Origin: Pelistega sp.
GTDB taxonomy: Bacteria; Pseudomonadota; Gammaproteobacteria; Burkholderiales; Burkholderiaceae_B
Direction of reading: 5' to 3'
Length of the DNA stretch: 49,332 nt
Assembly: GCA_030538255.1 (NCBI GenBank)
Contig: JAUNUI010000024.1
Location: 1-49,332, forward strand
Numbering within the stretch: the first letter of the stretch is position 1; each line of letters begins with the position of its first letter. Below the pieces are notes generated by a model. That model was not told the origin of the DNA and searched no databases. It saw only the letters and a program-made list of their open reading frames with translations. The position numbers and the translations under genes were made by a program. Positions 1,501 to 44,216 of the stretch are shown piece by piece.

Positions 1501-1620
1501 CATTATCCATGGTGATCGTACATTGGGTGAGGTGATGCTAGATGCTTACCTCGCCTTACACATTATCAATGGTGATTGCACATTGGTTGAGGCAACCCAA
1601 GACGCTTAGCTCGACGTATT
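1501..1620. repeat. Two diverged 60-bp tandem units
   Basis: Bases 1501-1560 and 1561-1620 align end to end without gaps, with 15 differences by my count (about 75% identity). Both begin CATTATC, followed by ATGGTGAT and later ACATTGG. The pair fills the spacer between the rhodanese terminator and the YeeE gene. It belongs to the window-wide class of degenerate intergenic tandem repeats. Confidence 0.8.
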
Positions 1621-1642
1621 ACAACAACCGTATTTTATTTCT

Positions 1643-2824
1643 ATGACAACTCGCTTTTTACCTGCTCTCGCCGTATTTTTGGCTGCTATCGGTTTCTCTT
1701 TCTATATTCGAGATATGGCTTCAGGTCAGACGCTCGTTTTTGCCTTATTCTGTGGTCTTGCTTTAGGTTTTGTTTTTCAACGATCACGCTTTTGTTTCTA
1801 TTGCCATGCGCGCGATTGGTTTGAAGACCGTAACCCACGCGGCGTTCTGTCGATTATCCTAGCCATTGCTATTGGCCTGATTATTTATACCATTGTTCTC
1901 AGTAGCTGGATGCCGAATCCGCAAGGCGGCTCCTTACCGCCCGATATCCACATCGGTCCTGTAAGTTGGGTATTAGTGGTCGCAGGACTTGCATTCGGTT
2001 TTGGTATGGTGATTTCGGGTTCGTGTATTAGTGCACATTGGTACCGTTTGTCTGAGGGCTCAGCAGCTTCACCTTTTGCCCTAATTGGCACAGCGATTGG
2101 TTTTGCCCTTGGTTTTATGAGCTGGAATCGACTCTACAGTATGGCGGTTGCTGAGGCCCCCGTGGTCTGGTTGCCCGCGCATTTTGGCTATGGTGGCGCT
2201 TTGCTCGTACAGCTCGCTTTCTTAGCTATTCTGGTATTTTTCTTATGGCGTTCATTTGCGGGTAAACCAAAGCAGACAGCGACTGAAGCAGACGCTACCG
2301 TACCGTCTCTTGCGCAAGTTATGCAACGCATTTTTACGGGCCGTTGGGATTACTGGATTGGCGGTTTAATCGTGGGTATTATTGGTGCTCTTGTGATTAT
2401 TCGCATGAAACCTTTAGGGGTAACAGCGATGCTAGGAAGTCAGACACGGGCTTTTGCACAAGAGTTTTCTTTTTTTCCGATGCGTTTAGATGGTCTTGAC
2501 CTGTTCGCGGGTTGCGCCACCTTACCTGAAGAGACTTGGATGACACCGAACGCGATTTTATTAGTTGGTATTATTTTTGGTTCTTTTGTCGCCGCATTAG
2601 CCAGTGGTCAATGGAAATTACCACGCATTAATTTACATGATTCTGCACGTGGTTTAGTCGGTGGTGTCTTACTCGGTTGGGGGGCGATGATTGGTTTAGG
2701 TTGCTCTATCGGCACTTTACTATCAGGTAGTATGGCTGGTGCTTTATCAGGCTGGGTATTTGGTGCAGCGATGTTTATTGCGATTTGGCTAGGCCTTAAG
2801 ATTAAAGCATGCTTGGCTTCTTAG
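1643..2824 (+). CDS. YeeE/YedE-family sulfur-transport membrane protein (TsuA-like)
   Basis: The 393-residue protein is very hydrophobic, with about nine or more membrane segments in two similar halves. Family cysteines are visible at Cys51 and Cys54 (RSRFCFYC), Cys128 (SGSCISAHW), Cys291 (FAGCATLPEE) and Cys354 (GLGCSIGTLL). In thiosulfate transporters of this family such cysteines relay the substrate through the membrane. By analogy it imports thiosulfate or a related sulfur species. The rhodanese immediately upstream fits that role, although a hairpin and a repeat pair separate them, so a shared transcript is uncertain. No clear Shine-Dalgarno precedes the start. Confidence 0.8.
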   Translation: MTTRFLPALAVFLAAIGFSFYIRDMASGQTLVFALFCGLALGFVFQRSRFCFYCHARDWFEDRNPRGVLSIILAIAIGLIIYTIVLSSWMPNPQGGSLPPDIHIGPVSWVLVVAGLAFGFGMVISGSCISAHWYRLSEGSAASPFALIGTAIGFALGFMSWNRLYSMAVAEAPVVWLPAHFGYGGALLVQLAFLAILVFFLWRSFAGKPKQTATEADATVPSLAQVMQRIFTGRWDYWIGGLIVGIIGALVIIRMKPLGVTAMLGSQTRAFAQEFSFFPMRLDGLDLFAGCATLPEETWMTPNAILLVGIIFGSFVAALASGQWKLPRINLHDSARGLVGGVLLGWGAMIGLGCSIGTLLSGSMAGALSGWVFGAAMFIAIWLGLKIKACLAS

Positions 2825-2930
2825 GCATTACGCGTTTCAGTCCATCACAGAAATTGAATCACTAAACCTTAAGCTAATCTCAGAGTGCTAAAATAAGTGC
2901 TCGATGAGTTTAGGTTTTGGAGTATTTAGT

Positions 2931-4607
2931 ATGTTTAAACGATTTCTGTTGATGCTTGTCATGCTGATCAGTACGCAACAAGCTATGGGTGCCAGTATGC
3001 TTGATCGTCTGAAAACATTTCCAGAGCTAAACTCGCAAGCGCCATATAGCTTCAAATCCTCGCAAGCAACCTTAGTAAAATTCTGGGCGAGTTGGTGCCC
3101 TTTGTGTCTTTCAACTTTAGATGAAACGCAGCAATGGCGCTCAGACCCCGATTTTGCTCAGGTGAATATTGTGAGCGTGGCCTCACCATCGTATCTTAGC
3201 GAAAAACCTGAAAAAGACTTCATCGAATGGTATAAGGCCTTGAATTACCCTGACTTACCCGTCTTATTGGATGTGGGTGGTAAGAATACCAAAGAATTTG
3301 GTATTGCCGCCTATCCAAGTTGGGCCTTAATTGATGCGGAAGGTAATTTGCAACGTATCGTGAAGGGGCATATCACTAAACCACAGGCTTTGGCACTCTT
3401 GCGTAATAAGAACGCGGATCTTAAAGAAGTGAATCGCGCTTTTAATCAAGTTTACCCACAGTCCAGTGTTGCCGTGCAATCTGCCAAGACCGAACTCTCT
3501 CAAACGGTCACACCTACCCAAGCGCCTAATCCATCCCAAGCGGCCAATTCATCTACTCATCAAGCCATCAGTGCAGGACATCTAACTAACAATTCTTCAG
3601 ACTCCATCGTTAAACCCATGCAGACACGAAAAATTTATTTAGCAGGCGGTTGTTTCTGGGGTGTGGAGGCTTATTTCGAACGTATCCCAGGTGTGGTTGA
3701 TGCAGTATCAGGTTATGCGAATGGTAATACTGAAAATCCAACATACCAAGATGTGATTTATCGTGGCACAGGGCATGCGGAGACGGTTGAAGTCACTTAT
3801 GATCCTGCGCGTATCAGCCTCACGCAATTGCTTGAATATTATTTCCGAGTGATTGACCCGACGCTCTTGAACCGCCAAGGCAATGATCGTGGGGTTCAGT
3901 ATCGTACAGGCGTGTACTACACTGACGCGCAAGAGCAATCCATCATTCATCAGGCGATTAAGAAAGAGCAAGCTAAGTATAAAAAGCCGATAGTGGTTGA
4001 AAACAAAGCCCTGCAAGGTTTTTACTTCGCGGAAGAATACCACCAGGACTATTTAGCTAAAAATCCTAATGGTTATTGTCATATTGATTTAAATTTAGCA
4101 GACAAGCCGCTTGATCCTGCGAGTCAGTCAAATGATCAGATTTTTATCGATCCACGTAATTACCATCGTCCGAGCAATGAGGAACTGAAGCGTCAGTTAA
4201 CGCCAGAGCAATACCGAATTACGGTGGAGCAGGGTACAGAACGTGCTTATACCCATCAGTATGATGATTTTTATGAGGATGGTGTGTATGTCGATATTAT
4301 CAGTGGTGAACCCTTGTTCAGCTCACAGGATAAGTATGACTCACAATGTGGTTGGCCTTCTTTTGTCAAGCCTATTGATCCTAAGGTCGTCACAGAACAC
4401 GCTGATTATTCCTACAATATGTATAGAATTGAAGTGCGTAGTCGTGTTGCCGATGCGCATCTAGGCCATGTCTTTCCTGATGGCCCGAAAGACCGAGGCG
4501 GCTTACGTTACTGTATTAATGGCGGAGCTTTAAACTTTATCCCAGCAGCAGAGCTTGAGGCACAGGGTTATGGGTTCTTACGACCTTTATTTCCTGTGAA
4601 GTCTTAG
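2931..4607 (+). CDS. msrAB: Trifunctional thioredoxin / MsrA / MsrB methionine sulfoxide reductase (PilB type)
   Basis: The fused protein repairs oxidised methionine. The start chosen is ATG 2931, with GGAG at 2919-2922, giving 558 residues; ATG 2904 would add nine. After a signal or anchor sequence comes a TlpA-like thioredoxin domain with Cys56-PLC59 (WASWCPLC), then a Ser/Thr/Ala-rich linker (about 190-230). The MsrA domain has GGCFWG with catalytic Cys241 and a likely recycling Cys383 (NGYCHID). The MsrB domain has QCGWPSF with Cys473 and RYCING with Cys528. This order is that of neisserial PilB. The thioredoxin domain would pass electrons from a membrane reductase to the Msr domains outside the cytoplasm. 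No partner reductase is seen here. Confidence 0.92.
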
Positions 4608-4682
4608 GCTCTTTAAATCATTATTTGACGTTAATGATTCTGAGTCGCTTGATCAAGTTTCAAGTATTTATAATTTGTTGTT

Positions 4683-4727
4683 AGAGCTCGCCGTCAAACC
4701 CTGTCAATCAGGAGGAGAGTGCCTCAA
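4683..4727 (+). mobile_element. Possible relic resembling an IS200/IS605 (tnpB) right end
   Basis: Begins AGAGCTCGCCGTCAAACCCT and ends GTGCCTCAA. It aligns over its full length with 44126-44169, which has the CCCC-GTCCTTAGGGT-GGGG hairpin typical of IS200/IS605-type right ends. Most of the hairpin has decayed in this copy. No transposase or tnpB coding sequence remains, so the call depends on similarity to the other copy. Confidence 0.3.
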
Positions 4728-4745
4728 TACATAAATACGCAAATT

Positions 4746-4859
4746 ATAAGCCCTAAAAAACATTAAGCTTAAAAAATATAAGCAATAATATAAGCCTAGA
4801 GTATAGGCATAGAATATAAGCCCTAAAAATATAGGCCTAGAATATAAGCCCTAAAAAAA
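4746..4859. repeat. Array of ~12-17-bp ATAAGCCCTAAAAAT-like units
   Basis: About eight degenerate units based on ATA(A/G)GCC(C)TA(A/G)AAT follow one another, for example ATAAGCCCTAAAAAT, ATAGGCCTAGAAT and ATAAGCCTAGAGT. The array fills the spacer between the convergent msrAB and DUF1851 genes. Its last A-run doubles as the T-tract of the minus-strand terminator. Confidence 0.75.
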
Positions 4860-4885
4860 CGCACTTCCTGTTAAAAAGAAGTGCG
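4853..4885 (-). terminator. Terminator of the DUF1851 gene
   Basis: On the minus strand CGCACTTC pairs with GAAGTGCG (8 bp) and is followed by seven T. It lies 28 bases past the DUF1851 stop codon. Confidence 0.8.
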
Positions 4886-4912
4886 TGGCATATAATCATG
4901 TCGCTTGATGTA

Positions 4913-5407
4913 TTACTGCTCCTTCACATCCCCAGCGGGCACATCAATATCTAAGGCCAATTCCTCATCGTCATATTGCTTAGTAATTTCGTCCCATAGC
5001 TCACCCATATCATCGAAGTGAGTTTGCACATCGAAGAGCTCTAGATTTTCGGAGCTGACTTCGCCGCCAAGGACGGGTGGTTTCTTAAAGCTATAGACGG
5101 TATTCTCTGGCATGTCTAAGGCCAATAAGGGAGCGAGTAATTCGATGGAGAAGTAATCAATCACAAAGTCGCTATCATTGAGCAAGGTTTTAAATTGCTC
5201 AATAGAGTCAGCAATTACTTCAAGCTCACCGTCCAAGGTATCAAGGAAGAGGATTTCACCAGTTTGTGGAGCGATTAAAAAGGCATCGCCTAACTTGGTA
5301 ATCATGGCGATTTCTAATTGCTCACTATCACATAGCCAGTACCAACTACGTAATAAGTCTTCGGCTTTAAAATTCTCACTATTAATGGTTAGGTTTTGAA
5401 TTTCCAT
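4913..5407 (-). CDS. DUF1851 (Tdi1-type immunity C-terminal domain) protein
   Basis: A 164-residue acidic protein. The stretch DAFLIAPQTGEILFLDTLDG (residues ~43-62), then IADSIEQF, then LGGEVSSENLELFDVQTHF, fits the DUF1851 family. That family includes the C-terminal domain of the type VI immunity protein Tdi1, but many members stand alone with no known role. No effector gene or other secretion gene is nearby, so an immunity role is not supported by context. It lies 93 bases downstream of the TM2-domain gene on the same strand, with a terminator hairpin between them. The C-terminus is strongly acidic. Confidence 0.55.
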   Translation of the reverse strand: MEIQNLTINSENFKAEDLLRSWYWLCDSEQLEIAMITKLGDAFLIAPQTGEILFLDTLDGELEVIADSIEQFKTLLNDSDFVIDYFSIELLAPLLALDMPENTVYSFKKPPVLGGEVSSENLELFDVQTHFDDMGELWDEITKQYDDEELALDIDVPAGDVKEQ

Positions 5408-5429
5408 ACGATAAGCATCCTTAATGAGT

Positions 5430-5460
5430 AAAAATAAGCCACTGTTTATTGGCAGTGGCT
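5430..5460 (-). terminator. Terminator after the TM2-domain gene
   Basis: On the minus strand AGCCACTG pairs with CAGTGGCT (8 bp, 8-base loop), then TATTTTT. It lies between the TM2 gene and the DUF1851 gene. Confidence 0.75.
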
Positions 5461-5500
5461 TGAAGGTGAATTTTACCTTATCTTATACCAATACTCGGTA

Positions 5501-5968
5501 TTAAGTCGTGTATCGTTGTAAAAAGGTCTCGTCATCCGTATACATATAACGAATCGCATCAATAAAGCTGATGAAAACCGATAAGGGGATAAAGATGAGC
5601 GAAATCAGAATAAACACGATGCCTGCGAACATCTGATTGAGGTAAAAGCGATGTGCGCCAGTCCAACCTAAGAAGATGGCAAGCACGATGGCGATTTTAC
5701 GAGTATTGGCGGGCTTATTCAGCTCCTCACCATGGTTTTTATGCAGCCATACTGAGATGCCTGCAGTGATTAGCAAGGCCAAGACAATCTTGACAGGATG
5801 CGCTTGCACATAGGACCAGATGGAGAGGAAGAAATCATTAAGATTGTAGAGAACAATACCCGTCCATTCATAGACCAGGGTTGCGAAACCACGAAATACA
5901 CCTTCGCCAAACGTCAGTGCGATTAGAACCACACAGAAGACAATAATTGGCACTAAGATCTTTTGCAT
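5501..5968 (-). CDS. TM2-domain membrane protein
   Basis: The 155-residue protein has an N-terminal membrane segment (residues ~4-22), further hydrophobic stretches, and a C-terminal TM2 domain from ~88. That domain shows TRKIAIVLAIFLGWTGAHRF, the typical G-x-HRFYL turn between two membrane helices, and the closing FIDAIRYMY. TM2 proteins are small membrane proteins of unclear biochemical role. A Shine-Dalgarno AAGGA lies ~10 bases before the ATG, inside the palindrome AAGGAATTCCTT. The upstream 685 bases contain only repeats. Confidence 0.75.
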   Translation of the reverse strand: MQKILVPIIVFCVVLIALTFGEGVFRGFATLVYEWTGIVLYNLNDFFLSIWSYVQAHPVKIVLALLITAGISVWLHKNHGEELNKPANTRKIAIVLAIFLGWTGAHRFYLNQMFAGIVFILISLIFIPLSVFISFIDAIRYMYTDDETFLQRYTT

Positions 5969-6011
5969 TATAAGGAATTCCTTTTAAGAAATAAGAACTA
6001 CTTTGGATTGG

Positions 6012-6081
6012 TATTTAAGTGAGGCCTTGAGTCGTAGCTTACTGCCCTTATTTAAGTGAAGCCTTGAATCGCAGCGTACTG
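6012..6081. repeat. 37-bp tandem pair
   Basis: TATTTAAGTGAGGCCTTGAG begins the first unit (6012) and TATTTAAGTGAAGCCTTGAA the second (6049). Both continue through a TCG(T/C)AGC...TACTG segment. It lies upstream of the TM2 gene in a 685-base gene-free stretch (5969-6653). Confidence 0.7.
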
Positions 6082-6105
6082 AAAATCACAATCCTATAAA
6101 AACTG

Positions 6106-6225
6106 ATTATTGCTTAAGCGTAGAGATTGATCGAGTCTACTTGACTGAAAAGCCTATTCATATCAATTGCTGCTTAAGCACAGTGTTTAGTCTCTAGACC
6201 GCTTGAAGGTCGAATTTTCAACTAA
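6106..6225. repeat. 60-bp diverged tandem pair
   Basis: TGCTTAAGC occurs at 6111 and 6171, exactly 60 bases apart, with weaker similarity around it (ATT(A/G)-TGCTTAAGC and, further on, GTCT and CTTGA). The 60-bp period equals that of the pair at 1501-1620, but the sequence differs. Confidence 0.5.
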
Positions 6226-6394
6226 GCAAGGTAAAGAGATTATCACCTATATTGCAGTAAAAGTAAGTAAATCAAGCATGAAAGATGCTACAAAAAATGT
6301 CAATTTTGTGGCGCGAAATAGCCATGTTTAATTTTAGTTGGCAATGGTTTCTACGCACAGGGCTTATTATTTCCACACTTGATAGAATTCACTC

Positions 6395-6582
6395 CCCAAT
6401 GAGGCTTCTATTGAAAACCCGATGAGATGGCATTAATCGTTTCACCACGATTTAATCTCCCCGATATGGCTTCTATTGAAAACTCCGATGAGGTACTTTG
6501 TAATGACAGCACGCACTGCCTGTCCTCCAATAGGGCTTCTATTGAAAACCTCGATGAGGCTTATATTGAAAATTTAATTAGC
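6395..6582. repeat. Four GCTTCTATTGAAAAC repeats
   Basis: The core GGCTTCTATTGAAAAC, flanked by C(C)(A/G)AT(G/A)(A/T)G and CCGATGAG, starts at 6404, 6469 and 6535. A fourth, slightly diverged copy (GCTTATATTGAAAAT) starts at 6559. Spacings are 65, 66 and 24. An open frame of 82 codons (6427-6675) crosses the array and would encode ASIEN(S/L)DE repeats; I regard it as a by-product. Confidence 0.75.
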
Positions 6583-6591
6583 GCATATGGT

Positions 6592-6624
6592 TGCAGCGGT
6601 GAACAGGGAGGCCAGCACCGCCGC
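6592..6624 (-). other. GC-rich hairpin downstream of dadA
   Basis: GCAGCGGTG pairs with CACCGCCGC with one mismatch, across a 15-base loop. It lies 30 bases past the dadA stop. It could act as a transcript-end hairpin, but no T-run follows. Confidence 0.4.
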
Positions 6625-6653
6625 TTATTTAGAAAAATTCGATATATCTGTGC

Positions 6654-9272: not shown

Positions 9273-11075
9273 ATGAATTGGTCCCAAGAGTTATTAGCCA
9301 GCCTACAGTGGGTAGGCATTGCTTTCGTTATTTCGGTAAGCTTACTTATCCTTATTGGTTTTATACTCATTAAAACAACGCGTTGGGCCGCTATGTTCTG
9401 GCAGTTAGCAGGGCATTATTTTGACCCTCGTAAAAATCCTCTAACGATTGTGACATTTGCCATTGTGCTGCTACTCAGTCTATTTGGTGTGCGACTGAAC
9501 GTCTTGTTCTCCAATTGGTATAACGCCATGTACACGGCTTTGCAGAAACTAGACGAGTCTATGTTCTGGATCCAAATGCTGGTTTTTACCGTGTTAGCGG
9601 CCATTCATATTACGCGTGCATTGGTGGCTTATTACCTGCAACAACGCTTTGTTATCAAATGGCGTGAGAATCTGAATAACGATATGTTGCACCGTTGGAT
9701 GAGCAATAAGAGTTACTATCGTACCTATTATCTTGACTCACCGATTGATAACCCGGACCAACGTATTCAACAAGATGTGGTGAGCTTTGCGACGCTTTCC
9801 TTAGAGCTCACGCTAGGCTTAATTTCCTCTATGGTATCGGTGGTGGCCTTCACCTTAATTCTCTGGAACCTATCAGGTCCATTAGAGTTGGGTGGTTTTG
9901 TGATTGATCGAGGTATGGTCTTCGCCTTATATATCTATATCTTAATTGCCACTGTGATCGCGTTTAAAATTGGTCGCCCCTTAATTCGTTTAAATTTCTT
10001 AGATGAGCGCTTAAATGCGAACTATCGTTACTCCTTAATCCGTGTGCGTGAATATGCTGAGAGCATTGCTTTCTATGCGGGTGAAGTGATTGAGGGCAAT
10101 AAGCTCTTACAACGCTTTAAGGCGGTAATTGAGAATGTATGGGCAATTGTGCACCGTAGCCTTAAATTCCAAGGTTTTAACTTATTGGTTTCTCAGACTG
10201 CGGTTATTTTCCCCTTTATTATTCAAGCACCGCGCTTTTTTAGTCAACAGATTAGTCTTGGGGATATGATTCAGACCTCGCAGGCATTTGGCAACTTAAC
10301 GGATAATTTGTCGTTCTTTCGTACCGCTTATGATAATTTCGCCCAATACCGTGCGGTCTTAGAGCGTCTGACGGGTTTTGATGTGAATATTGAGCGTGCA
10401 GATAACTTGCCTGTGCCAAGGATTGAAACTGAAGGTGAACGTGTTGCTTTGGAAGATGTTGGCGTCACGACACCACTTGGCCGTGAATTAGTGAATCATT
10501 TGAATCTGAGTGTTAATAAAGGTGAGTCGCTACTTATTCAAGGTCCCTCAGGCTCAGGTAAAACCACCATTTTACGAACCGTGGCTGGGCTCTGGCCGTA
10601 TTCGTCAGGGCGCGTTGTGCGACCGACTGAGGGTGTACTGTTCTTATCGCAGAAGCCGTATCTACCCGAAGGCCCCTTGGTGGATACTTTATTCTATCCA
10701 AATCCTGTGCCCGAGAATGGTCAGCAATTAGCACTTGAAGTCTTGGAAAAAGTCGCCTTACCGCATTTGGTGAATCGCTTAGATCATGACTCTAGCTGGA
10801 CCCATAGCTTATCTTTAGGTGAGCAGCAGCGCGTGGCGTTTGCGCGCATACTCTTGATGAAGCCGACAGCGGCCTTCTTGGATGAAGCTACGTCAGCCAT
10901 GGACGAGGGGCTTGAGTTCTCAATGTATCAGTTATTGCATCGTGAATTACCAGATTTACGCTTAATTAGTATTGGCCACCGTAGTACCTTGCATATCCAT
11001 CATACGCATATCTTGACCTTGAAAGAAGGCGCGCAATGGGACTTGGCGGTGCAGACGCTGAAGGCTGGTGAGTAA
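9273..11075 (+). CDS. ABC exporter, SbmA/BacA-like membrane domain fused to ATPase (YddA type)
   Basis: This 600-residue half-transporter has an N-terminal SbmA/BacA-like membrane domain (residues ~1-330, several helices, with FSNWYNAMYTALQ and the NPDQRIQQD segment). A C-terminal ATPase follows: Walker A GPSGSGKTT (424-432), signature LSLGEQQR (from 513) and Walker B AFLDEA (Asp537/Glu538). Relatives carry peptides or vitamin B12; the substrate here is unknown. ATG 9273 is preferred; TTG 9261 would add four residues. It probably works as a homodimer in the inner membrane. Confidence 0.85.
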   Translation: MNWSQELLASLQWVGIAFVISVSLLILIGFILIKTTRWAAMFWQLAGHYFDPRKNPLTIVTFAIVLLLSLFGVRLNVLFSNWYNAMYTALQKLDESMFWIQMLVFTVLAAIHITRALVAYYLQQRFVIKWRENLNNDMLHRWMSNKSYYRTYYLDSPIDNPDQRIQQDVVSFATLSLELTLGLISSMVSVVAFTLILWNLSGPLELGGFVIDRGMVFALYIYILIATVIAFKIGRPLIRLNFLDERLNANYRYSLIRVREYAESIAFYAGEVIEGNKLLQRFKAVIENVWAIVHRSLKFQGFNLLVSQTAVIFPFIIQAPRFFSQQISLGDMIQTSQAFGNLTDNLSFFRTAYDNFAQYRAVLERLTGFDVNIERADNLPVPRIETEGERVALEDVGVTTPLGRELVNHLNLSVNKGESLLIQGPSGSGKTTILRTVAGLWPYSSGRVVRPTEGVLFLSQKPYLPEGPLVDTLFYPNPVPENGQQLALEVLEKVALPHLVNRLDHDSSWTHSLSLGEQQRVAFARILLMKPTAAFLDEATSAMDEGLEFSMYQLLHRELPDLRLISIGHRSTLHIHHTHILTLKEGAQWDLAVQTLKAGE

Positions 11076-11079
11076 GGTA

Positions 11080-11241
11080 GGTGAATTAGTCAGTCTGCCA
11101 TAGAGTAGTCTGCCTAGGCGGATAAGTGAGAAAGGTGAATTAGACAATCTGCAATAGCTAGCCTGTACTAGGTGGATGAGTGAGAGAGATGAATTAGTCA
11201 ATCTGCAATAGCTAGCCTGTACTAGGTGGATGAGTGAGACA
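11080..11241. repeat. Three 54-bp tandem units abutting the ABC exporter gene
   Basis: Units start at 11080, 11134 and 11188, each beginning G(G/A)TGAATTAG and ending GAGTGAGA-like. Units 2 and 3 differ at about three positions, while unit 1 is more diverged. The first unit starts 4 bases past the TAA of the ABC gene, and its GTGAG-AAGGT edge resembles the gene's last bases. The close match of units 2 and 3 suggests recent copying. Confidence 0.9.
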
Positions 11242-11260
11242 CTTGATTAAGATAATCAAG
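11242..11260. promoter_or_regulatory. Inverted repeat before the GNAT gene
   Basis: CTTGATTA-AGA-TAATCAAG is a perfect 8-bp inverted repeat. It ends just before the AAGAAGG Shine-Dalgarno of the GNAT gene at 11277. It could be an operator or an RNA hairpin affecting translation. Confidence 0.4.
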
Positions 11261-16983: not shown

Positions 16984-17052
16984 GTGCATTAAGAAACAGG
17001 CGTAGAAAGAGGATGATTAGGTTCATTAAGAAGGCGTTTAGATAATCGCCTT

Positions 17053-17127
17053 AAGAACAAGAACCTTACGCACAAGAGTCTTAAGATCGAGAACCTTAAG
17101 ATCAAGCGGCTTAAGAATAAACATCTT
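17053..17127. repeat. Five 15-bp tandem units (AAGAACAAGAACCTT type)
   Basis: Units begin at 17053, 17068, 17083, 17098 and 17113, and all end CTT (e.g. AAGATCGAGAACCTT, AAGATCAAGCGGCTT). They are degenerate but strictly in register. The array sits in the rlmB to PLP-enzyme gap (16984-17305). Confidence 0.85.
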
Positions 17128-17184
17128 AAGTCTCATTAAGAATAGGCGCCAGAAGCATAAACTTATTAGACCCAGTAATAACAG

Positions 17185-29124: not shown

Positions 29125-29275
29125 TGCAAATATGGGCTATTAATATTCACTATGAATATTGATCATTACTATTCACACCGACTATTCAGCTAGGAATTTC
29201 ATTTCTAATCTTGCTAGGAATTTAACTTCAATTTGCAAGGAATTTCATTTCCGAGTTAGCAAGAAATTTAAGCCA
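29125..29275. repeat. Two AT-rich micro-tandem blocks (TATTCAC and GCTAGGAATTTCATTT types)
   Basis: From 29125, TATTCAC(T/A) recurs every ~20-26 bases. From 29189 there are four ~23-bp units with GC(T/A)AGGAATTT starts at 29189, 29213 and 29235, and GCAAGAAATTT at 29259. They lie in the gene-free part of 29060-29505. Confidence 0.75.
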
Positions 29276-30208: not shown

Positions 30209-30302
30209 TTTACTAAGCAATAAATTTACTCAGCAATAAAGATTGATATGCGATAAGGTTTTGTGTGTGATCAAGATGGTGAATGTGATCTAGATGATGA
30301 AT
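30209..30302. repeat. Short tandem pairs of 16 and 18 bp upstream of sbcD
   Basis: TTTACTAAGCAATAAA and TTTACTCAGCAATAAA are adjacent (30209-30240). GTGATCAAGATGGTGAAT and GTGATCTAGATGATGAAT are adjacent (30267-30302). The word ATGCGATAAG also recurs nearby. They fill most of the 357-base gap 30037-30393. Confidence 0.85.
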
Positions 30303-30393
30303 GTTTCACCTTTTTTAAGCTATTTTAAGATTTAAACATGAGTTTCAGTGAGCAATAAGCACTGACTTTTACCAGGACATAAGCGAAAACAAA

Positions 30394-31649: not shown

Positions 31650-31651
31650 AT

Positions 31652-36687: not shown

Positions 36688-36844
36688 ATGCGAAATATCC
36701 CTTTGTTCGATGTGGATTATCCTTTCGTATCGGGTGAGTTAGCTCTTTGCTCGATGCGAAATATTTCATGGTTCGACGCGAAATGTCTCTTTATACCATG
36801 TGAAAAATCCCTTCCTATCGTATTAATTATCCCTTCTTGTTTGG
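36688..36844. repeat. Seven ~22-bp tandem units (ATGCGAAATATCCCTTTGTT type)
   Basis: Units of 21-24 bp start at 36688, 36710, 36733, 36754, 36776, 36798 and 36821. Most begin ATG(C/T)GAAA(T/A)AT and end with (T)TCG/ATCG. They lie in the divergent gap (36566-36964) ahead of the Bug gene. An open frame of 60 codons runs through them and is judged a by-product. The spacing is about two helical turns. Confidence 0.85.
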
Positions 36845-37957: not shown

Positions 37958-38020
37958 GTCACTTGAGACTCTGTTCTTATATTTAAAATTTGGTTTTGAA
38001 TTAAACTAAATTTTTTTGCT

Positions 38021-38052: not shown

Positions 38053-38108
38053 AACTTATTAATGCTGTGTTTGATGCTTATTGCGAATTTAAATGCTTGA
38101 GAATGGTT

Positions 38109-38240: not shown

Positions 38241-38256
38241 AAGACATACGGTCGCA

Positions 38257-38586
38257 TCAATATCGCTTCATCTCAGGCTCAATTTCTTGTGCCCAGGCTT
38301 CGATACCGCCTTGCAGATTATAGACATCTTCAAAGCCTGCCTGAATCAAGAAATGAGCCACATTATAGCTGCGCACACCATGATGACAATAAATAACCAA
38401 GGGCTTGTCATCGTCAATTTCATTATGACGGATGGGGATGAGATTCATCGGTATATGTTGGCTATTGTCTAGCTTTACATAGTCGACTTCGTCTTGATTG
38501 CGAACGTCCAACAAAATAAAATCTCTTTTTTGATCTTGCCATTGCTTAAGCTCTTGCACGCTTAAGGTATGAATTTCCTGCATCAT
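38257..38586 (-). CDS. Single-domain rhodanese-like protein
   Basis: The 109-residue cytoplasmic protein has one rhodanese domain. DFILLDVRNQDEVDYVKLD lies near the start and the active-site loop is IYCHHGVRSYNVAHFL with Cys67. It then reads VYNLQGGIEAWAQEI. The CHHGVRS loop is the GlpE/YgaP-like small-rhodanese type. It should accept or carry sulfane sulfur; a specific partner is not evident. AAGAAGG precedes the ATG. Its 3' end abuts the LysR relic. Confidence 0.85.
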   Translation of the reverse strand: MMQEIHTLSVQELKQWQDQKRDFILLDVRNQDEVDYVKLDNSQHIPMNLIPIRHNEIDDDKPLVIYCHHGVRSYNVAHFLIQAGFEDVYNLQGGIEAWAQEIEPEMKRY

Positions 38587-38797
38587 ATTGCCTTCTTAGT
38601 AGTTATTTCATTGACGTCTCCCCGCGCATTGAAGAACGAGGTTTTACGGCGGTTCTGATAAATATTGAGGGCTGCAAAATTTCGCAAATGCGAATGCCCA
38701 AAGGTGAACTATAATGACAGGGTTTTAGCGAAATGTCTAATGCAGATAGGCTGATATGCCTTGCGTTCAGGTCCATGCTGCTTGAAAAGGATTTTAT

Positions 38798-39472
38798 ATG
38801 AGACTTTTGGTTGTTGAAGATGACTTAACCTTAGGCCCTGCTTTGCAAGAGTATTTGCAGGCGCAAATGTATGAGGTCGACTTGGTCGATATGGGCCAGG
38901 CCGCGCTTAATGCTTTAGCGCATGAACATTATCATCTTGTCTTACTGGATCTTAATTTGCCCGATATGAGCGGTTTAGATGTACTGCGCTTAATCCGCGC
39001 AGAAGGGCAATTAGTGCCAGTCTTGGTTCTAACCGCACGTGATAGCTTAGATAGTCGAGTCGCGGGTTTAGATGCGGGTGCCGATGATTACGTGGTGAAA
39101 CCTTTTGCCCTAGATGAATTGGCGGCTCGGGTGCGTGCTTTTAAGCGTCGTCAGGAGGGTTTTAACCAGCATATTCTCGAGTTTGAGGCGCTGGTGATGG
39201 ACACTCAAAATCGCGAGGTGAGGGTGCACCAAGAGCGCCTAAATTTATCTGTACGTGAGTTTGCTATTCTTGAGATGCTGATGCAACGCTCTGCTAAAGT
39301 GGTGACCAAGCGCCAGATTGTCGACCACTTAGCTGATAATCTGGAAAGTGAATTAAGTGACAATGCGATTGAGGTGTATATCTATCGCTTGCGTAAACAA
39401 CTTGAAGGCACGGGTGTACATATCCAAACTGTACGTGGCTTTGGTTATATGCTGGAAAAAGACCATGCTTAG
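38798..39472 (+). CDS. OmpR-family response regulator
   Basis: The 224-residue regulator has a receiver domain with acidic pocket VVEDDLTLG, phospho-acceptor Asp51 (LLDLNLPDMSG), TARDSLDSRVAGLDAGADDY and VVKPFALDEL. A winged-helix output domain follows (LSVREFAILEMLMQ, IEVYIYRLRKQL, VRGFGYMLEKDHA). It pairs with the kinase downstream and resembles the QseB/TctD group. Its last codons (GYMLEKDHA) are the source of a 42/43-bp repeat array that continues to the kinase start. Confidence 0.92.
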   Translation: MRLLVVEDDLTLGPALQEYLQAQMYEVDLVDMGQAALNALAHEHYHLVLLDLNLPDMSGLDVLRLIRAEGQLVPVLVLTARDSLDSRVAGLDAGADDYVVKPFALDELAARVRAFKRRQEGFNQHILEFEALVMDTQNREVRVHQERLNLSVREFAILEMLMQRSAKVVTKRQIVDHLADNLESELSDNAIEVYIYRLRKQLEGTGVHIQTVRGFGYMLEKDHA

Positions 39473-39619
39473 TAAACTCATCATCAGCTATCTGTTGAAA
39501 AAAGACCATGGCTAAAAACTTACCATCAGCTATTTGTTGGAAAAAGACCATGCCTATGAAACTTAAGATCGGCTCTATGCTGGAAAAAGACCATGCCTAA
39601 GAAAATTAAAATCGGTTTT
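39449..39619 (+). repeat. 42/43-bp repeat array joining response-regulator end to kinase start
   Basis: ATGCTGGAAAAAGACCATGC or a close variant occurs at 39449 (within the regulator gene), 39492, 39534 and 39577; the spacing is 43, 42 and 43. The last copy supplies the kinase start codon (ATG 39593). A weaker fifth copy (TTGCCAAAAGG) falls inside the kinase gene at ~39620. Each unit also carries an A/T-rich part related to AAAATTAAAATCGG. Confidence 0.9.
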
Positions 39620-40732
39620 TTGCCAAAAGGCTCGATCCTGCGTTATCTCGTAGGACGCTTGGCATTTGCACTGATTTTATTTTTATGCATCGACTTTTTG
39701 CTCACTTGGTTTATTAGTCGTCAGAGTCACCTGTCCGATTGGTCAGTTGGTGATTTATTTGTTTTGATGATTATTAGCCAGATTTTCATTGTGGGTGGCT
39801 TTGCCGCACTGGTGTATTTTGGCGTGCGTTCTGGCTTGCGTACGGTTCGTCAACTCTCACAAGAGATTGCTGAGCGTAATGCGGACGATTTGCAGCCTAT
39901 TGATACGGCTAATGTGCCCACTGAACTACAACCGGTGATTGCGCGCTTGAATGATTTATTAGGGCGTTTAGACGAATCACTTCTCGCACAAAAGCGCTTT
40001 ATTGGGAATGCAGCGCATCAGTTGCGTACACCCTTGACAGGCTTAAGGATGGAATCTGAATTGATGCTCGCTAAGGATGATTTACCTGAGGATATTCAAG
40101 CGCGTGTTCAGCGTATTCATCAAGTTTCTAACCGTTTAATTCACTTAGGTGAACAGCTATTAGCGCTTGCACGGGCGGACTATCGCTTGCACCCACGCGA
40201 CTCATTTAAGCAATTAGACTTAGTGGCCTTGGCCGAAAACCTAGGTTCCGAATGGTTTCTAAAGCTACGCGAACAGAAGATTGATTTAGTCTTTGAGGCG
40301 CCTGAACAAGCAGTGATGATTGATGGGTCGGAAATTCTCCTGGAAGAGCTCTTAAGTAATTTATTGGATAATGCACTTAAATATGCCAAGGGTGCCAATA
40401 AGATTATTTTACAAGTAAAGCAAAATCCGCCGAGCCTGCTCATTGAAGATAATGGCTGCGGTGTAGCACATGAAGAACGAGAGATGATATTTGACACCTT
40501 TGTACGCTCAGCAAGTAGCCCAAGTGGCTTAGGTACTGGCCTAGGCTTATCGATTGTGCGTGAGATTGCACGAGCGCATGGGGCAGGGTGGAGTTTAGTC
40601 AGTCGTCCTGATATTCAAGGCACGCGCGTTATGGTGGTTTTTCCTGGGCCACGTATTGGAACAGGCCTGCGACGCCTACCGAAACCTGTTAAATCCATGC
40701 CAAGTTTAAGTGATGTGACAGCCGATCATTAA
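39593..40732 (+). CDS. Sensor histidine kinase with almost no periplasmic domain
   Basis: The 379-residue kinase has two membrane helices (~21-41 and ~53-77) with only ~11 residues between them. Next come a HAMP-like stretch (~78-130), the H-box FIGNAAHQLRTPLTG with His142, the N-box LLSNLLDNALKYA, and G-boxes EDNGCGV and GTGLGLSIV. Related TctE/QseC kinases have a sensor domain of 100 or more residues outside the membrane; here it is missing, so sensing must be intramembrane or cytoplasmic. The start codon lies inside the repeat array described at 39449-39619. Confidence 0.92.
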   Translation: MPKKIKIGFLPKGSILRYLVGRLAFALILFLCIDFLLTWFISRQSHLSDWSVGDLFVLMIISQIFIVGGFAALVYFGVRSGLRTVRQLSQEIAERNADDLQPIDTANVPTELQPVIARLNDLLGRLDESLLAQKRFIGNAAHQLRTPLTGLRMESELMLAKDDLPEDIQARVQRIHQVSNRLIHLGEQLLALARADYRLHPRDSFKQLDLVALAENLGSEWFLKLREQKIDLVFEAPEQAVMIDGSEILLEELLSNLLDNALKYAKGANKIILQVKQNPPSLLIEDNGCGVAHEEREMIFDTFVRSASSPSGLGTGLGLSIVREIARAHGAGWSLVSRPDIQGTRVMVVFPGPRIGTGLRRLPKPVKSMPSLSDVTADH

Positions 40733-40798
40733 GTATACATGCCGCCGATCATTAAGTATTCAAGAATCATGTGCTTCTTTAGTCTGCATAATGCTAGC

Positions 40799-40854
40799 GC
40801 ACTCAGTCCAAAGCACTCAGCCCCAAGCACTCAGCCTAAACTACTTAGCCCTGA
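40799..40854. repeat. 14-bp tandem array (GCACTCAGYCCAAA type)
   Basis: GCACTCAGTCCAAA, GCACTCAGCCCCAA, GCACTCAGCCTAAA and a diverged fourth unit lie head to tail. The same 258-base gap (40733-40990) begins with a copy of the kinase gene's end: GCCGATCATTAAGTAT occurs at its stop and again ~22 bases later. Confidence 0.85.
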
Positions 40855-40904
40855 TAGTTGTCAGCTAAAGCGCTTAGTACCACATAAACGTGATAAAAAT
40901 ACTA

Positions 40905-40942
40905 AAACAAAAAAGGACTACTTCAATTAAAAAGTAGTCCTT
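40905..40942 (-). terminator. Terminator of argG
   Basis: On the minus strand AAGGACTACTT pairs with AAGTAGTCCTT (11 bp), followed by TTTTGTTTT. Confidence 0.85.
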
Positions 40943-40945
40943 ATT

Positions 40946-40979
40946 GATTAGTGTACAGCCTTGATTAGCGTACAGCCTT
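40946..40979. repeat. 17-bp tandem pair at the argG 3' end
   Basis: GATTAGTGTACAGCCTT and GATTAGCGTACAGCCTT are adjacent and differ at one base. They lie between the argG stop and its terminator. Confidence 0.9.
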
Positions 40980-40990
40980 AAAAGTAATGT

Positions 40991-42211
40991 TTACTTACGG
41001 CCAGCCTTGCTTTCAATGCGCATACGTAAGGCATTAAGCTTAATAAAGCCCGCAGCATCAGCTTGGTTGTATGCACCACCATCATCGTCAAAAGTCGCAA
41101 TGGTTTGGTCAAATAAGCTGTCTTTAGAATCACGTGATACAGTGTACACATTACCCTTATAGAGTTTAAGGCGTACAAAGCCGTTAACGTGCTCTTGCGT
41201 ATGGTCAATTAAAACTTGTAGCGCTTGACGCTCTGGAGACCACCAGTAGCCGTTATATACCAATGAGGCATAACGTGGCATCAGGTCGTCTTTCAAGTGA
41301 GCAACTTCGCGGTCTAGCGTAATTGATTCAATCGCACGGTGGCCTTTTAACATAATCGTGCCGCCAGGGGTTTCATAGCAACCGCGTGATTTCATACCCA
41401 CGTAACGGTTCTCCACAAGGTCTAGACGACCAATACCGTGCTTACCACCAAGTTCGTTCAAGCGCGTTAAGACTTGAGCTGGGCTCAGGCGTTCACCATT
41501 AATGGCAACGATATCACCACGTTCGTACTCAAGGTCAATGTATTCAGGTGTATCAGGAGCTTGCTCAGGAGAGACAGTCCAACGCCACATTGACTCTTCC
41601 GCTTCCGCTTTAGGATCTTCGAGGTGACGGCCTTCATAGCTGATATGTAATAAGTTAGCATCCATAGAGTAAGGAGCACCGCCTTGCTTATGCTTCATAT
41701 CAATTTCGATACCCGCATCCTCTGCATATTTAAGCAGTTTTTCACGAGACAATAAATCCCACTCACGCCATGGAGCAATCACACGAATATCAGGATTTAA
41801 AGCGTAGTAGCCAAGCTCGAAGCGGACTTGGTCGTTACCTTTACCTGTGGCGCCATGCGATACGGCGTCGGCATTTAGTTTCTGGGCGATTTCAATTTGA
41901 CGCTTAGCAATCAATGGACGCGCGATAGAGGTGCCTAATAGGTATTCACCTTCGTAGATGGCATTCGCACGGAACATCGGGAAGACAAAATCACGGACAA
42001 ATTCTTCACGTAGATCATCAATGAAAATATTCTCGGGTTTGATGCCGAATTTCAAGGCTTTAGCACGTGCTGGCTCCAGCTCTTCGCCTTGACCAATATC
42101 CGCTGTAAAGGTAATCACCTCACAGTTATAGGTATCTTGCAACCATTTCAAAATAACTGAGGTATCTAAGCCGCCAGAATAGGCGAGTACGACTTTTTTA
42201 ACTTCGCTCAT
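40991..42211 (-). CDS. argG: Argininosuccinate synthase
   Basis: The 406-residue enzyme joins citrulline and aspartate using ATP. Visible are the PP-loop [15 protein letters not shown] (~9-23), [31 protein letters not shown] and [13 protein letters not shown]. It shares direction with argF, 153 bases downstream of it, but the gap holds a 45-bp repeat array. It catalyses the penultimate step of arginine synthesis. Confidence 0.97.
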
Positions 42212-42270
42212 GAAGGACTCTATAAATTAAATATAAGTAGGTAAAAGATCTATTTTAACGCTAAATGCAC

Positions 42271-42405
42271 TGGCTTAGCTGCTTAGCTTGCCAAGCCCTG
42301 AGAAATCATTAGTGCCCGATTAGCCGCTTAGCTTGCCAAGCGCTGAGAAAACATCATTATTGGCTTAGCTACTTAGCTTGCCAAGAACCAAGAATTCCAT
42401 TAGTG
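42271..42405. repeat. Three 45-bp units continuing the 3' end of argF
   Basis: GCTTAGCTTGCCAAG occurs at 42281, 42326 and (ACTTAGCTTGCCAAG) 42371, exactly 45 bases apart. The unit at 42361-42405 includes the true argF end (codons for EFLVLGKLSS and stop). The two other units are decayed copies lying beyond the stop. The period is a multiple of three, so the original copying could have extended the reading frame. Confidence 0.9.
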
Positions 42406-43306
42406 CTTTCTGTACATGCAGGCGATTTTCCGCTTCGTCCCAGACTACGCTTTGAGGGCCATCAATCACTTCGGCAGAGACTTCCTCACCGCGGTGGGCA
42501 GGCAAGCAATGCATGAAAATGGCATCAGGCTTGGCTAAAGACATCATCTCTTGGTCAACCATCCAGTTGGCAAAAGCAAGACGACGCTTCTCGTTCTCTT
42601 GTTCGTAACCCATGCTCGTCCACACGTCGGTGGTAATCATATCGGCACCCTTAGCGGCTTCCATTGGGTCATCAAACTCGGCCAAGTGTTGCTCACTGAC
42701 TGAACCAATACGGGTGTGTTCAAGCTGGTAACCTTTAGGGGCTGAGATATGGAGTTTGAAATCAAGCAACTGGGCGGCTTGTAACCAGGTATATGACATA
42801 TTATTAGCGTCACCAATCCAACAAATTGTCTTGCCCTTAATTGGACCACGGTGCTCAATAAAGGTCAAAATATCCGCTAAGATTTGACAAGGATGGTATT
42901 CATTGGTTAAGCCATTAATCACTGGGACGCGTGAGTGAGCGGCAAAGCGCTCTAAGCGCGTCTGCTCAAAGGTACGAATCATCACAATATCAACCATGCG
43001 CGTAATTACGCGTGCGGTATCTTCAATTGGCTCAGAGCGGCCGAGTTGTGAGTCATTGGAGGTTAGATTAATGACTGAACCACCCATCTGGTACATACCT
43101 GCCTCAAAAGAGACACGGGTACGCGTACTGGCTTTCTCGAAAACCATCGCTAAGGTGCGGTCATGCAAAGGCATATGCGGCTCATAGCGCTTAAATTTAT
43201 TTTTGATAAATCGTGCTCGCTCTAACACGTAAAGGATTTCATGCGCGGAAAAATCCGTTAATTGTAAAAAGTGACGCATAGGACCTGTTGATGTCTGAGT
43301 AGTCAT
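42365..43306 (-). CDS. argF: Ornithine carbamoyltransferase
   Basis: The 313-residue enzyme makes citrulline from ornithine and carbamoyl phosphate. The carbamoyl-phosphate loop KASTRTRVSFE (~53-63), the HPCQILADI segment (~137-145) and the ornithine loop HCLPAHRGEE (~270-279) are intact. A second ATG at 43279 gives a start closer to typical relatives (MRHFLQL) and has AGG upstream, so the first nine residues are uncertain. It is divergent from the DUF3579 gene. Its 3' end is the source of a 45-bp repeat array. Confidence 0.97.
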   Translation of the reverse strand: MTTQTSTGPMRHFLQLTDFSAHEILYVLERARFIKNKFKRYEPHMPLHDRTLAMVFEKASTRTRVSFEAGMYQMGGSVINLTSNDSQLGRSEPIEDTARVITRMVDIVMIRTFEQTRLERFAAHSRVPVINGLTNEYHPCQILADILTFIEHRGPIKGKTICWIGDANNMSYTWLQAAQLLDFKLHISAPKGYQLEHTRIGSVSEQHLAEFDDPMEAAKGADMITTDVWTSMGYEQENEKRRLAFANWMVDQEMMSLAKPDAIFMHCLPAHRGEEVSAEVIDGPQSVVWDEAENRLHVQKALMEFLVLGKLSS

Positions 43307-43420
43307 AATAGCTAAAATAAATAAAGTGATTGTGGAGGAAACCAGCCAAACTGGTGACTAAAGGTTTATAATATACAATTCTATCGCAAATTGGCGTTAT
43401 TTCCTTGCAGATAGAATAAA

Positions 43421-43747
43421 ATGTCTCCCTTCTATCTTGAACTACGAACTTCTTCTGTGCAACAATTAATTATCTTCGGTGTGACCGAGTCTGGTCAGCG
43501 TTTTCGTCCCAGTGACTGGGCTGAGCGTCTCGCAGGGGTGATGGCGCAATTTCGACCTCCTGGTTCTGTGAGCAGTCATCTGACATACTCTCCTTACGTG
43601 ACCCCGACGAATGTGGATGGTCATAAGAGTGTTATCGTGGATACAAGATTACGTGACTTAGAACCACGTGCATGGAAATTCATTCTCGACTTCGCTAAAG
43701 ATAATCATATGAAGACCGAGTTGCGTGACGTGCATGTGCGCGAGTAG
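43421..43747 (+). CDS. DUF3579 protein
   Basis: The 108-residue protein contains IIFGVTESGQRFRPSDWAER and LEPRAWKFILDFAKDNHMKT, characteristic of the betaproteobacterial DUF3579 family. Its function is unknown. The gene is regularly found beside argF in Burkholderiales, as here, where the two diverge. No clear Shine-Dalgarno is visible before the ATG. The last ~25 bases of the gene recur, diverged, 67 bases downstream. Confidence 0.85.
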   Translation: MSPFYLELRTSSVQQLIIFGVTESGQRFRPSDWAERLAGVMAQFRPPGSVSSHLTYSPYVTPTNVDGHKSVIVDTRLRDLEPRAWKFILDFAKDNHMKTELRDVHVRE

Positions 43748-43814
43748 TTGGTTCAGCAAGTGGCACGATGACATCTTTAGCGAGTGGCTGCGTGAGGTGG
43801 ATGTGCGCAAATAG
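43723..43814. repeat. Diverged copy of the DUF3579 gene end
   Basis: GCGTGACGTGCATGTGCGCG, at the end of the gene (43723-43747), recurs as GCGTGAGGTGGATGTGCGCA at 43790-43814. Both are followed by a TAG. The spacing is 67 bases. Confidence 0.8.
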
Positions 43815-43914
43815 CCGAGTCGCTAGGTCGCTCTGGGTAATTAAGTCACTCTATGGCTCACGAGTAGTTTTATCTGAAAGCTGAGTCATCATCAATCTTC
43901 GTCAATTTCAAACT

Positions 43915-43996
43915 GCGTCAATTGACGCTAAATACCTTACTGAATACCTTAAAAGCAGAATTAATATGGGCGGAAAGGTTCTGCGTCAATTGACGC
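43915..43996. repeat. Two copies of the palindrome GCGTCAATTGACGC in a 68-bp direct repeat
   Basis: The perfect 14-bp palindrome lies at 43915-43928 and 43983-43996. Both copies are followed by TRAATRCCTYACTGAATA-like sequence. It could be a protein-binding site or a decayed repeat unit. It lies between the DUF3579 gene and its terminator. Confidence 0.7.
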
Positions 43997-44018
43997 TGAA
44001 TGCCTCACTGAATATTTT

Positions 44019-44067
44019 AAAACCGAGCAAACACTTTCATGAACTGAAGTGCTTAACTCGGTTTTTT
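44019..44067 (+). terminator. Terminator after the DUF3579 gene
   Basis: AAAACCGAG pairs with CTCGGTTTT, with an inner CACTT/AAGTG, and ends in T6. Confidence 0.75.
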
Positions 44068-44125
44068 AATGCCTAGCTATTCGCTTCGAGCATTCAATAA
44101 TTTTCCAAGTGCTGCAAGCTTTATC

Positions 44126-44169
44126 AGAGCTTGTCGTGAACCCCGTCCTTAGGGTGGGGAGGGCATCAA
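44126..44169 (+). mobile_element. Relic resembling an IS200/IS605 (tnpB) right end
   Basis: The segment reads CGTGAACCCCGTCCTTAGGG and then TGGGGAGGGCATCAA. The CCCC-loop-GGGGAGG hairpin followed by a TCAA end is typical of right ends of IS200/IS605 elements carrying tnpB, where it also forms the 3' end of the guide RNA. No coding sequence of such an element remains. A more decayed relative lies at 4683-4727. Confidence 0.45.
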
Positions 44170-44216
44170 AGAAGCAATCAAAAAAGCAATCGAAGACGTA
44201 ATCAAAAAAGCAATAG
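44169..44216. repeat. 24-bp tandem pair (AAGAAGCAATCAAAAAAGCA type)
   Basis: Units at 44169-44192 and 44193-44216 differ at a few positions; both contain AATCAAAAAAGCAAT. The array begins at the edge of the IS-end relic. Confidence 0.85.

Follow-up and report, generated by a model that had tools for sequence, protein, structure and literature searches.

Degenerate Short Tandem Arrays in the Intergenic DNA of a Pelistega Genome as Probable Products of Ordinary Duplication, Selection, and Decay

Introduction

Short tandem units in the bacterial chromosome are known as minisatellites or variable number tandem repeats (VNTRs) and are defined by their polymorphism. In yeast, rad27 (FEN1) mutants show tandem duplications of tens of bases between short direct repeats, and in Borg elements the tandem repeats inside open reading frames (ORFs) have a unit length that is a multiple of three. 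Borg repeats arise independently, may begin within the end of an ORF, and are flanked by partial repeats, as described in the available part of PMC9879509. The noncoding tandem repeats of Ehrlichia ruminantium undergo active expansion and contraction in a genome with long intergenic regions (Collins 2005 and Frutos 2006, as cited in the available part of PMC10710844), the coding ratio of which, about 64%, is said there to be the lowest among bacteria. BRE, an approximately 90-bp repeat of Bordetella and other Betaproteobacteria, differs in tandem copy number between species (PMC3110155, available part), and this was the nearest case in a literature search which, in the accessible parts of the sources, found no account of unrelated arrays of the present sort in the family. 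The present work deals with such arrays, which are short, degenerate, and intergenic, in a stretch of 49,332 nucleotides of Pelistega sp. (bases 1–49332 of contig C17, called the window) and in the genome to which it belongs (G000, 2.95 Mb in 47 contigs). They occur in excess, obey a frame rule inside genes, in some cases overlap gene ends, are specific to the lineage, and are found at some junctions where the gap is longer than in several relatives. It is likely that they are ordinary short tandem duplications, filtered by selection and then decayed, and that no element is involved.

Sequences and Methods

The G000 sample comprised 360 kb, namely the window and 19 further stretches; a twentieth, L141, consisted of N only and was excluded. 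Genes were called as greedy longest ORFs of at least 80 codons, and the listed window arrays were assigned to spacers between ORFs of at least 100 codons. Arrays were detected by the tandem repeat finder TRF, which allows gaps, and by an ungapped lag test against dinucleotide shuffles. Comparison was made with six further genomes of the genus (G001 to G006), with genomes outside it, and with 80 panel loci consisting of L032–L047 (16 loci, mostly of the same family) and L048–L111 (64 others); each species was represented by one genome.

Tandem Arrays in the Spacers

At a minimum score of 30 TRF returned 38 rows in the window. Its 30 spacers (8,883 bp) hold 12 arrays with a TRF score of at least 50, whereas 20 dinucleotide-shuffled sets averaged 0.05. 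A preliminary description of the window had listed 18 arrays. For 14 of them (at 1501, 6012, 6404, 11080, 17053, 29189, 30209, 30267, 39449, 40799, 40946, 42271, 43915, and 44169) none of 60 shuffles reached the ungapped score at any lag. The array at 4746, whose ungapped score was reached by 17 of 60 shuffles, scored 109 in the gapped TRF search with a period of 28 bp, and no TRF score reached 70 when the window spacers were shuffled 20 times. By TRF and lag test together these 15 arrays stand clearly above shuffles and the one at 36688 is borderline; two, at 6106 (17 of 60 shuffles) and 29377 (31 of 60), are at chance level with a free lag, with p values of 0.008 and 0.022 at their own lags. 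The accompanying figure of at least 15 affected spacers was too high, as the 18 arrays fall in 12 spacers.

The 360-kb sample contained 36 purely intergenic arrays and 13 at gene boundaries with a TRF score of at least 50, versus 0.2 to 0.6 per shuffled set, although at least one member of this noncoding set, L128 11740–11830 at the end of a contig, is likely to be coding, and a few more reach the end of their contig. A further 16 arrays of this score were coding. Units in spacers measured 11 to 77 bp by TRF and up to 85 bp with the ungapped detector, and 48 of the 49 arrays had 1.9 to 3.9 copies, the remaining one 7.4. Provided that the sample is representative, the whole genome would by extrapolation contain about 400 noncoding arrays. 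In a test that does not depend on TRF, 58 of the 162 spacers of 80–900 bp held a direct repeat better than in all 60 of their own shuffles, 2.7 being expected. Among spacers with no detected array 18 of 117 still beat all shuffles, which suggests that traces of older arrays persist there. Repeat density thus proved to be far above dinucleotide shuffles in window and sample alike. Detected arrays account for about 7% of the spacer DNA of the sample and, in the window, for 13% (1165 of 8883 bp), gene-internal array parts being counted, so that they leave most spacer DNA unexplained.

That the arrays are chance matches of low-complexity sequence or artefacts of assembly might be argued from the two listed arrays at chance level and from the split of the genome into 47 contigs. 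The spacer test against own shuffles contradicts this, and misassembly would not yield copies which differ by 10–25%. Such an explanation is barely conceivable, and for the array class as a whole it is already refuted.

Occurrence in Other Genomes

With 0.99 noncoding TRF arrays per kb of spacer G000 heads its genus, followed by G001 (0.63), G006 (0.23), G004 (0.20), G003 (0.17), G002 (0.16), and G005 (0.10), where the counts of G001, G006, and G002 take in one tRNA-Val pair each with at least one detector and those of G006 and G004 one poly-A run each. In the spacer test, which covered fewer stretches of these genomes than the TRF densities, all shuffles were beaten in 13 of 53 spacers of G001, 6 of 48 of G006, 2 of 49 of G004, 3 of 49 of G002, 3 of 30 of G005, and none of 29 of G003. 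The trait is patchy in the genus, being high in two of seven species, G000 and G001, and low in four. In a tree of seven proteins, built without G004, G000 was placed outside the group of G001, G006, and G002 with bootstrap values of 83 and 93, and the two array-rich genomes are therefore not sisters on that small tree. A two-protein tree, made as a check for a single origin, gave no resolved branching. Five relatives of the genus share a mean identity of 66–76% in the seven proteins, and their spacers are mostly unalignable.

Outside the genus, TRF density was 0.10 per kb in G010 and 0.51 in G020, zero in G012, G007, and G018, 0.48 in G013 (three arrays, where shuffles give 0.6), and 0.46 in G023 (three arrays). 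In 50 kb of E. coli K-12, of which 4.8 kb are spacer, no array reached a score of 50. The panels gave 0.45 for L032–L047 and 0.16 for L048–L111; with the ungapped detector the values were 0.79 for G000, 0.17, and 0.06, respectively. Depending on the detector, G000 hence exceeds the family panel by a factor of 2–5 and the wider panel by a factor of 6–13, and its arrays are denser than those of the other bacteria compared. The spacer test was positive in 1 of 32 spacers of G010, 11 of 36 of G020, and 41 of 444 of the 80-locus panel, the 16 family-like loci contributing 15 of 109. The arrays of G020 (L180–L183) have units of 41–217 bp with 82–95% matches and make up about 17% of its sampled spacer DNA, gene-internal parts included; with its longer units and as a member of another genus, G020 may be a different case from G000.

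Private Units and the Question of Function

The preliminary description had stated that the sites share no sequence, and this holds in the DNA searched. When 55 arrays of G000 were compared with the 360-kb sample by blastn (E ≤ 0.01), three weak matches elsewhere were found, one of them about 60 bp off in the same locus. Two window arrays searched against the whole genome matched only themselves; one of these, at 11062..11257, gave this single match in its own genome and none in the six relatives of the genus. Against 1.4 Mb of eight relatives the 55 arrays gave four weak matches (E ≤ 0.01), one from the probably coding L128 array. When the window was compared with 40 kb of each genus relative (blastn, E ≤ 1e-5), the matches fell in genes, tRNAs, and short flanks of genes and extended at most about 10 bp into any of the listed arrays, even though the stretches compared have largely retained their gene order. 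At the junction of the SpoU methylase and Cys/Met pyridoxal phosphate (PLP) enzyme genes both G000 and G001 have arrays, with differing units. The arrays are thus specific to the lineage and not conserved.

These results bear on the idea that the arrays are relics of a repeat family or mobile element of the REP, Correia-like, MITE, BRE, or CRISPR type. It could draw on the tandemly repeated BRE of about 90 bp in Bordetella, as far as the available part of PMC3110155 describes it, and on the relative G006, where arrays in two places hold common sequence. Against it stand the few weak cross-matches of the G000 arrays and the single-locus matches of the two tested genome-wide, and Rfam at gathering scores yielded two tRNAs in the window and nothing more. 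Most arrays consist of adjacent diverged copies and do not show the unique spacers of a CRISPR pattern, and no cas family occurred among the Pfam matches of the 30 scanned window ORFs, to which the cas search was limited. An origin from a repeat family is highly improbable, and for the two arrays compared with the whole genome it is refuted. The common sequence of G006 is TATATCGTCCTCACTACAGAA, present in arrays with 380-bp units (L114 15552–16463) and 59-bp units (L198 11498–11616); in contrast to G000, this relative may thus contain a dispersed repeat family.

A function under selection, as clusters of binding sites, 3′ structures of mRNA, or terminator-linked elements, is rather unlikely as well. 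Terminator-like hairpins adjoin or shortly follow the arrays at 4741, 17049, and 40944, terminator-like hits in positions 1–20000 numbered 25 versus 17.8 in shuffles (standard deviation 4.0), and convergent spacers are somewhat denser in arrays (15 arrays in 8.7 kb as compared to 35 in 40.8 kb, p 0.08). In positions 28400–45000, however, such hits were not above shuffles (14 versus 16.1), different arrays have no units in common, and the relatives are nearly without counterparts, with the mentioned four weak matches for 55 arrays. Folding of the units is near that of shuffles, 5 of 46 having a z value below −2. Hairpin-prone units were rejected as an explanation with a mean z of −0.38. Inverted repeats that beat all 60 shuffles were found in 24 of 162 spacers of G000, 4 of 29 of G003, and 4 of 30 of G005 and are not special to G000. 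Degenerate repeats beside genes in this genome should not be taken for regulatory motifs untested.

Arrays at Gene Edges and the Growth of Spacers

Fifteen arrays of the sample overlap genes, with 11 overlaps at 3′ ends and six at predicted 5′ ends, two arrays doing both; the 5′ count is the less sure one, as start codons were set by the longest-ORF choice and can be wrong. An array on the minus strand at 42269..42385 (45-bp unit, 2.6 copies) overlaps the 3′ end of the ornithine carbamoyltransferase (OTC)-like ORF 42365–43306, beginning 21 bp within it. Its three copies all contain TTGGCAAG, which in the gene copy is part of the LGK codons. Because LGK is also found near the C-terminus of the OTC in four of six relatives, the unit was most likely derived from the gene.

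The array at 39446..39613 (plus strand, 43-bp unit, 3.9 copies) spans the end of the response-regulator ORF 38798–39472 and the start of the histidine-kinase ORF 39593–40732. Each 43-bp copy holds the coding region of the regulator end and the start region of the kinase; the first copy ends the regulator and the last copy starts the kinase. The first part of the regulator-end region matches the ends GFGYMLE and GFGYVLE of orthologues. The gap between the two genes measures 120 bp in G000, 1 bp in G020, and −4 bp, that is an overlap, in G010; the other six genomes of the genus yielded no orthologue at E ≤ 1e-60. In L135 (18959–19144) a 77-bp unit with 95% identity also contains a stop codon and a predicted start.

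The array at 11062..11257 (plus strand, 54-bp unit, about 3.6 copies) has its first 14 bp within the 3′ end of the ABC transporter ORF 9261–11075 and takes up most of the gap before the GNAT ORF. This gap measures 201 bp in G000 and 137 bp in G001. In G006 it is 10–19 bp or turns into an overlap, according to which start codon is taken, and the predicted starts of G005 and G003 place it at −34 bp; the comparison was made without G002, where the ABC match runs into a stop after 335 of 604 residues, and G004, which gave no matches there. Between the SpoU methylase and PLP enzyme genes, where a 15/30-bp array lies at 17049..17130 (found by TRF, 0 of 60 shuffles) with a terminator-like hairpin at 17184–17205, the gap is 322 bp in G000 and 391 bp in G001 as compared to 15 bp in G006, 8 in G002, 0 in G005, and 1 in G003. 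Two tRNA-Val (TAC) genes at 26409–26715 lie 155 bp apart in the window, and the same pair is 23–29 bp apart in L113, L115, and L119; judged from the sequences, this gap may likewise have grown in G000 or may have shrunk elsewhere.

The building of intergenic DNA is thus supported at single sites, because some junctions which abut in relatives hold arrays here. A tentative further proposal, for which the chances are somewhat short of even, is that spacers of this lineage are born at gene edges. Duplication of a stop, a start, or a junction would leave the inner copies as new noncoding DNA, which would loosen operons stepwise. Several observations weigh against so general a role. The array between the SpoU and PLP genes makes up 82 of the 322 bp only, and 6 of the 17 gene-edge overlaps depend on longest-ORF start codons. 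The gap between OTC and argG ranges from 3 to 280 bp in other members of the genus, so that this junction alone cannot show that the array made the gap. Spacers free of arrays are also long here (542 bp at 8719–9260 versus 127–287 in five relatives; 328 bp at 13169–13496 versus 63–167 in four), and the G000 spacers 12319–12406, 18563–18819, 42212–42364, and 43307–43420 are shorter than in G001.

How bacteria acquire noncoding DNA can rarely be observed, owing to the quick turnover of their spacers. In this genome the copies can still be read, for some of them the coding end of origin is recognisable, and in several related species the junctions are tight and free of arrays. The formation of spacers, the drawing apart of overlapping genes, and the loss of translational coupling thereby come within reach of direct tests. 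If birth at gene edges is true, genes that overlap or abut in relatives become separated and operons are loosened in a readable manner.

Copying, Selection, and Decay

A sequence of ordinary steps probably accounts for the arrays. A background of short tandem duplications with units of 11–85 bp, mostly in 2–3 copies, would strike coding and noncoding DNA, most likely by slippage or misalignment between short repeats, as we infer. Selection would retain the harmless ones, which are whole-codon duplications in genes and those within spacers or across a stop, a start region, or a junction. The outer copies would go on serving the flanking genes and the remaining ones would turn into spacer. Point mutations would afterwards set the copies apart, which could still be recognised up to a divergence of about 25%. 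The heavy load of arrays in G000 and one relative would be due to weak removal, or else to an older burst, and not to faster copying.

The frame rule is a prediction of neutral duplication filtered by selection. Periods were divisible by three in all 16 coding arrays and in 14 of 36 purely intergenic ones; the rule was seen in 7 of 11 and 41 of 51 coding arrays of the panels and is thus unspecific to G000. Identity between copies varies between 100% and about 75% and is below 90% in 29 of 39 ungapped noncoding arrays, a spread to be expected from steady origin and persistence or from an older burst. In perfect duplicates the match exceeds one unit by 1–11 bp.

Not all data fit this account of background duplication and retention. 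Perfect spacer duplications are about as frequent in G000 (four in 49.5 kb, 0.08 per kb) as in the 80-locus panel (six in 106 kb, 0.06 per kb), and coding repeats number 0.052 per kb, the panel values being 0.050 and 0.062. For 44 decayed two-copy arrays from four genomes, two of which are tRNA gene pairs, the extra match was scattered with a median of 0 and a mean of 4.3; they lack a clean microhomology signature, and a simple simulation without homology misfits at either end. A repair defect was looked for by Ku, MutS, SbcD, PolA, and DHH domain searches and none was found.

As neither perfect duplicates nor coding repeats are enriched, the excess is read as retention or age and not as fast copying, the numbers being small. 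The competing view would be a genome-wide hypermutable copying, by defective slippage control or a special polymerase, which is active now and enlarges the spacers. In its favour are the array density relative to both panels, the existence of a few perfect or 97–98% identical arrays, and a first, smaller sample of G001 with four perfect duplicates in 14.5 kb (0.28 per kb). With more sequence, however, this figure dropped to 0.10 (four in 38 kb), G006 had one perfect duplicate in 30 kb, and the rate in G000 itself is close to that of the panel. All 25 genomes searched have the MutS ATPase domain, and the PolA 5′ nuclease and the DHH (RecJ-type) domain were each present in all 11 genomes searched for them. 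The SbcD C-terminal domain occurred in 4 of 14 genomes and did not track array density. Active hypermutable copying is accordingly doubtful. Ku (PF02735) was absent from all seven genomes of the genus and present in 8 of the 25 searched, and Ku-dependent end joining is an unlikely source. With Ku absent throughout the genus, MutS, PolA, and DHH uniformly present, and SbcD not tracking the trait, causes in these repair genes were rejected. SbcD- and SbcC-like genes are found in the window at 30394–34696, SbcD being patchy in the group.

The preliminary description had proposed a genome-wide local duplication process that builds intergenic DNA. A class of decayed, unrelated arrays across the sample and, at single sites, growth of spacers remain of this proposal; an unusually active copying does not.

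Further Arrays of the Window

Apart from the three gene-edge arrays described above, no strand was assigned to the arrays of the window. Upstream of the Sulf_transp ORF 1643–2824 lies an array with a 60-bp unit in 1.9 copies (1499..1613, TRF 153, 0 of 60 shuffles). The 13/28-bp degenerate array at 4741..4858, which reaches its TRF score at period 28 and fails the ungapped test, ends beside a terminator-like hairpin at 4859–4886; an ORF with the C-terminal domain of the type VI secretion system immunity protein Tdi1 (PF08906) is found at 4913–5407. It is followed by a 37-bp direct duplication at 6012..6081 (0 of 60 shuffles) and by spaced copies of a GGCTTCTATTGAAAAC-like unit of 65/66 bp at 6404..6585, for which the segment 6461–6559 at lag 66 was reached by 0 of 60 shuffles and the wider extent was set by eye.

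In the second half of the window a 22-bp array at 29189..29271 (TRF 87 for 29189–29251, 0 of 60 shuffles) precedes two duplications of 16 bp (30209..30240) and 18 bp (30266..30304), both found by TRF and with 0 of 60 shuffles. The borderline array of about 22 bp at 36688..36820 is degenerate; its lag-22 score was reached by one of 60 shuffles, and at lag 88 it beats all 60. Inside it, in the spacer between the divergent genes of a TPP enzyme and a TctC receptor, a long imperfect hairpin of 16 pairs (36723–36761) is followed by T-rich sequence. TRF and the lag test (0 of 60 shuffles) also agree on a 14-bp array of 3.8 copies at 40799..40851, a 17-bp duplication at 40944..40979 beside the terminator-like hairpin 40913–40942, and a 12/24-bp array at 44165..44220. 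A 68-bp spaced direct repeat at 43913..44022 has about 42 aligned bases per copy (score 59, 0 of 60 shuffles). Pfam families were matched by 29 of the 30 scanned ORFs of the window, mainly of ordinary metabolism, transport, and regulation, and the best named relatives of its OTC protein carry Alcaligenaceae names.

Comparison with Known Systems

In analogy to rad27 mutants the arrays are tandem duplications of some tens of bases, but the equivalent PolA 5′ nuclease domain is present here. Like VNTRs they are head-to-tail copies with a unit above about 10 bp; they differ in an array density 2–13 times that of the two comparison panels, and polymorphism within a species lies outside the scope of one genome per species. 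With BRE, as far as it is described in the available part of its source, they have in common that tandem repeats are located in spacers of the same family of bacteria. BRE is set apart by that description as one sequence family at many loci, whereas the units of G000 are unshared between loci.

The resemblance to Borg repeats extends to partial copies at array edges, as judged from the available part of the Borg account, and to coding units in multiples of three (16 of 16 in G000), which is unspecific as the panels are mostly likewise. By the same partial account Borg repeats are recent, fast evolving, and extrachromosomal, whereas the arrays of G000 are chromosomal and mostly degraded, and near-identical copies as in Borgs are lacking, 29 of 39 ungapped noncoding arrays being below 90% identity. 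Ehrlichia ruminantium has many noncoding tandem arrays above background, as G000 does. There copy number is actively variable, whereas G000 is known from one genome and has mostly decayed arrays of 2–4 copies, and the coding ratio of about 64% contrasts with 84.8% in the G000 sample as obtained by simple ORF calling. By analogy, the case of G000 would work like the repeats of Ehrlichia ruminantium and of Borgs and yet would not be classed with them, given its ordinary coding ratio and mostly old arrays. The arrays resemble what a few other genomes show and are not a new kind of element.

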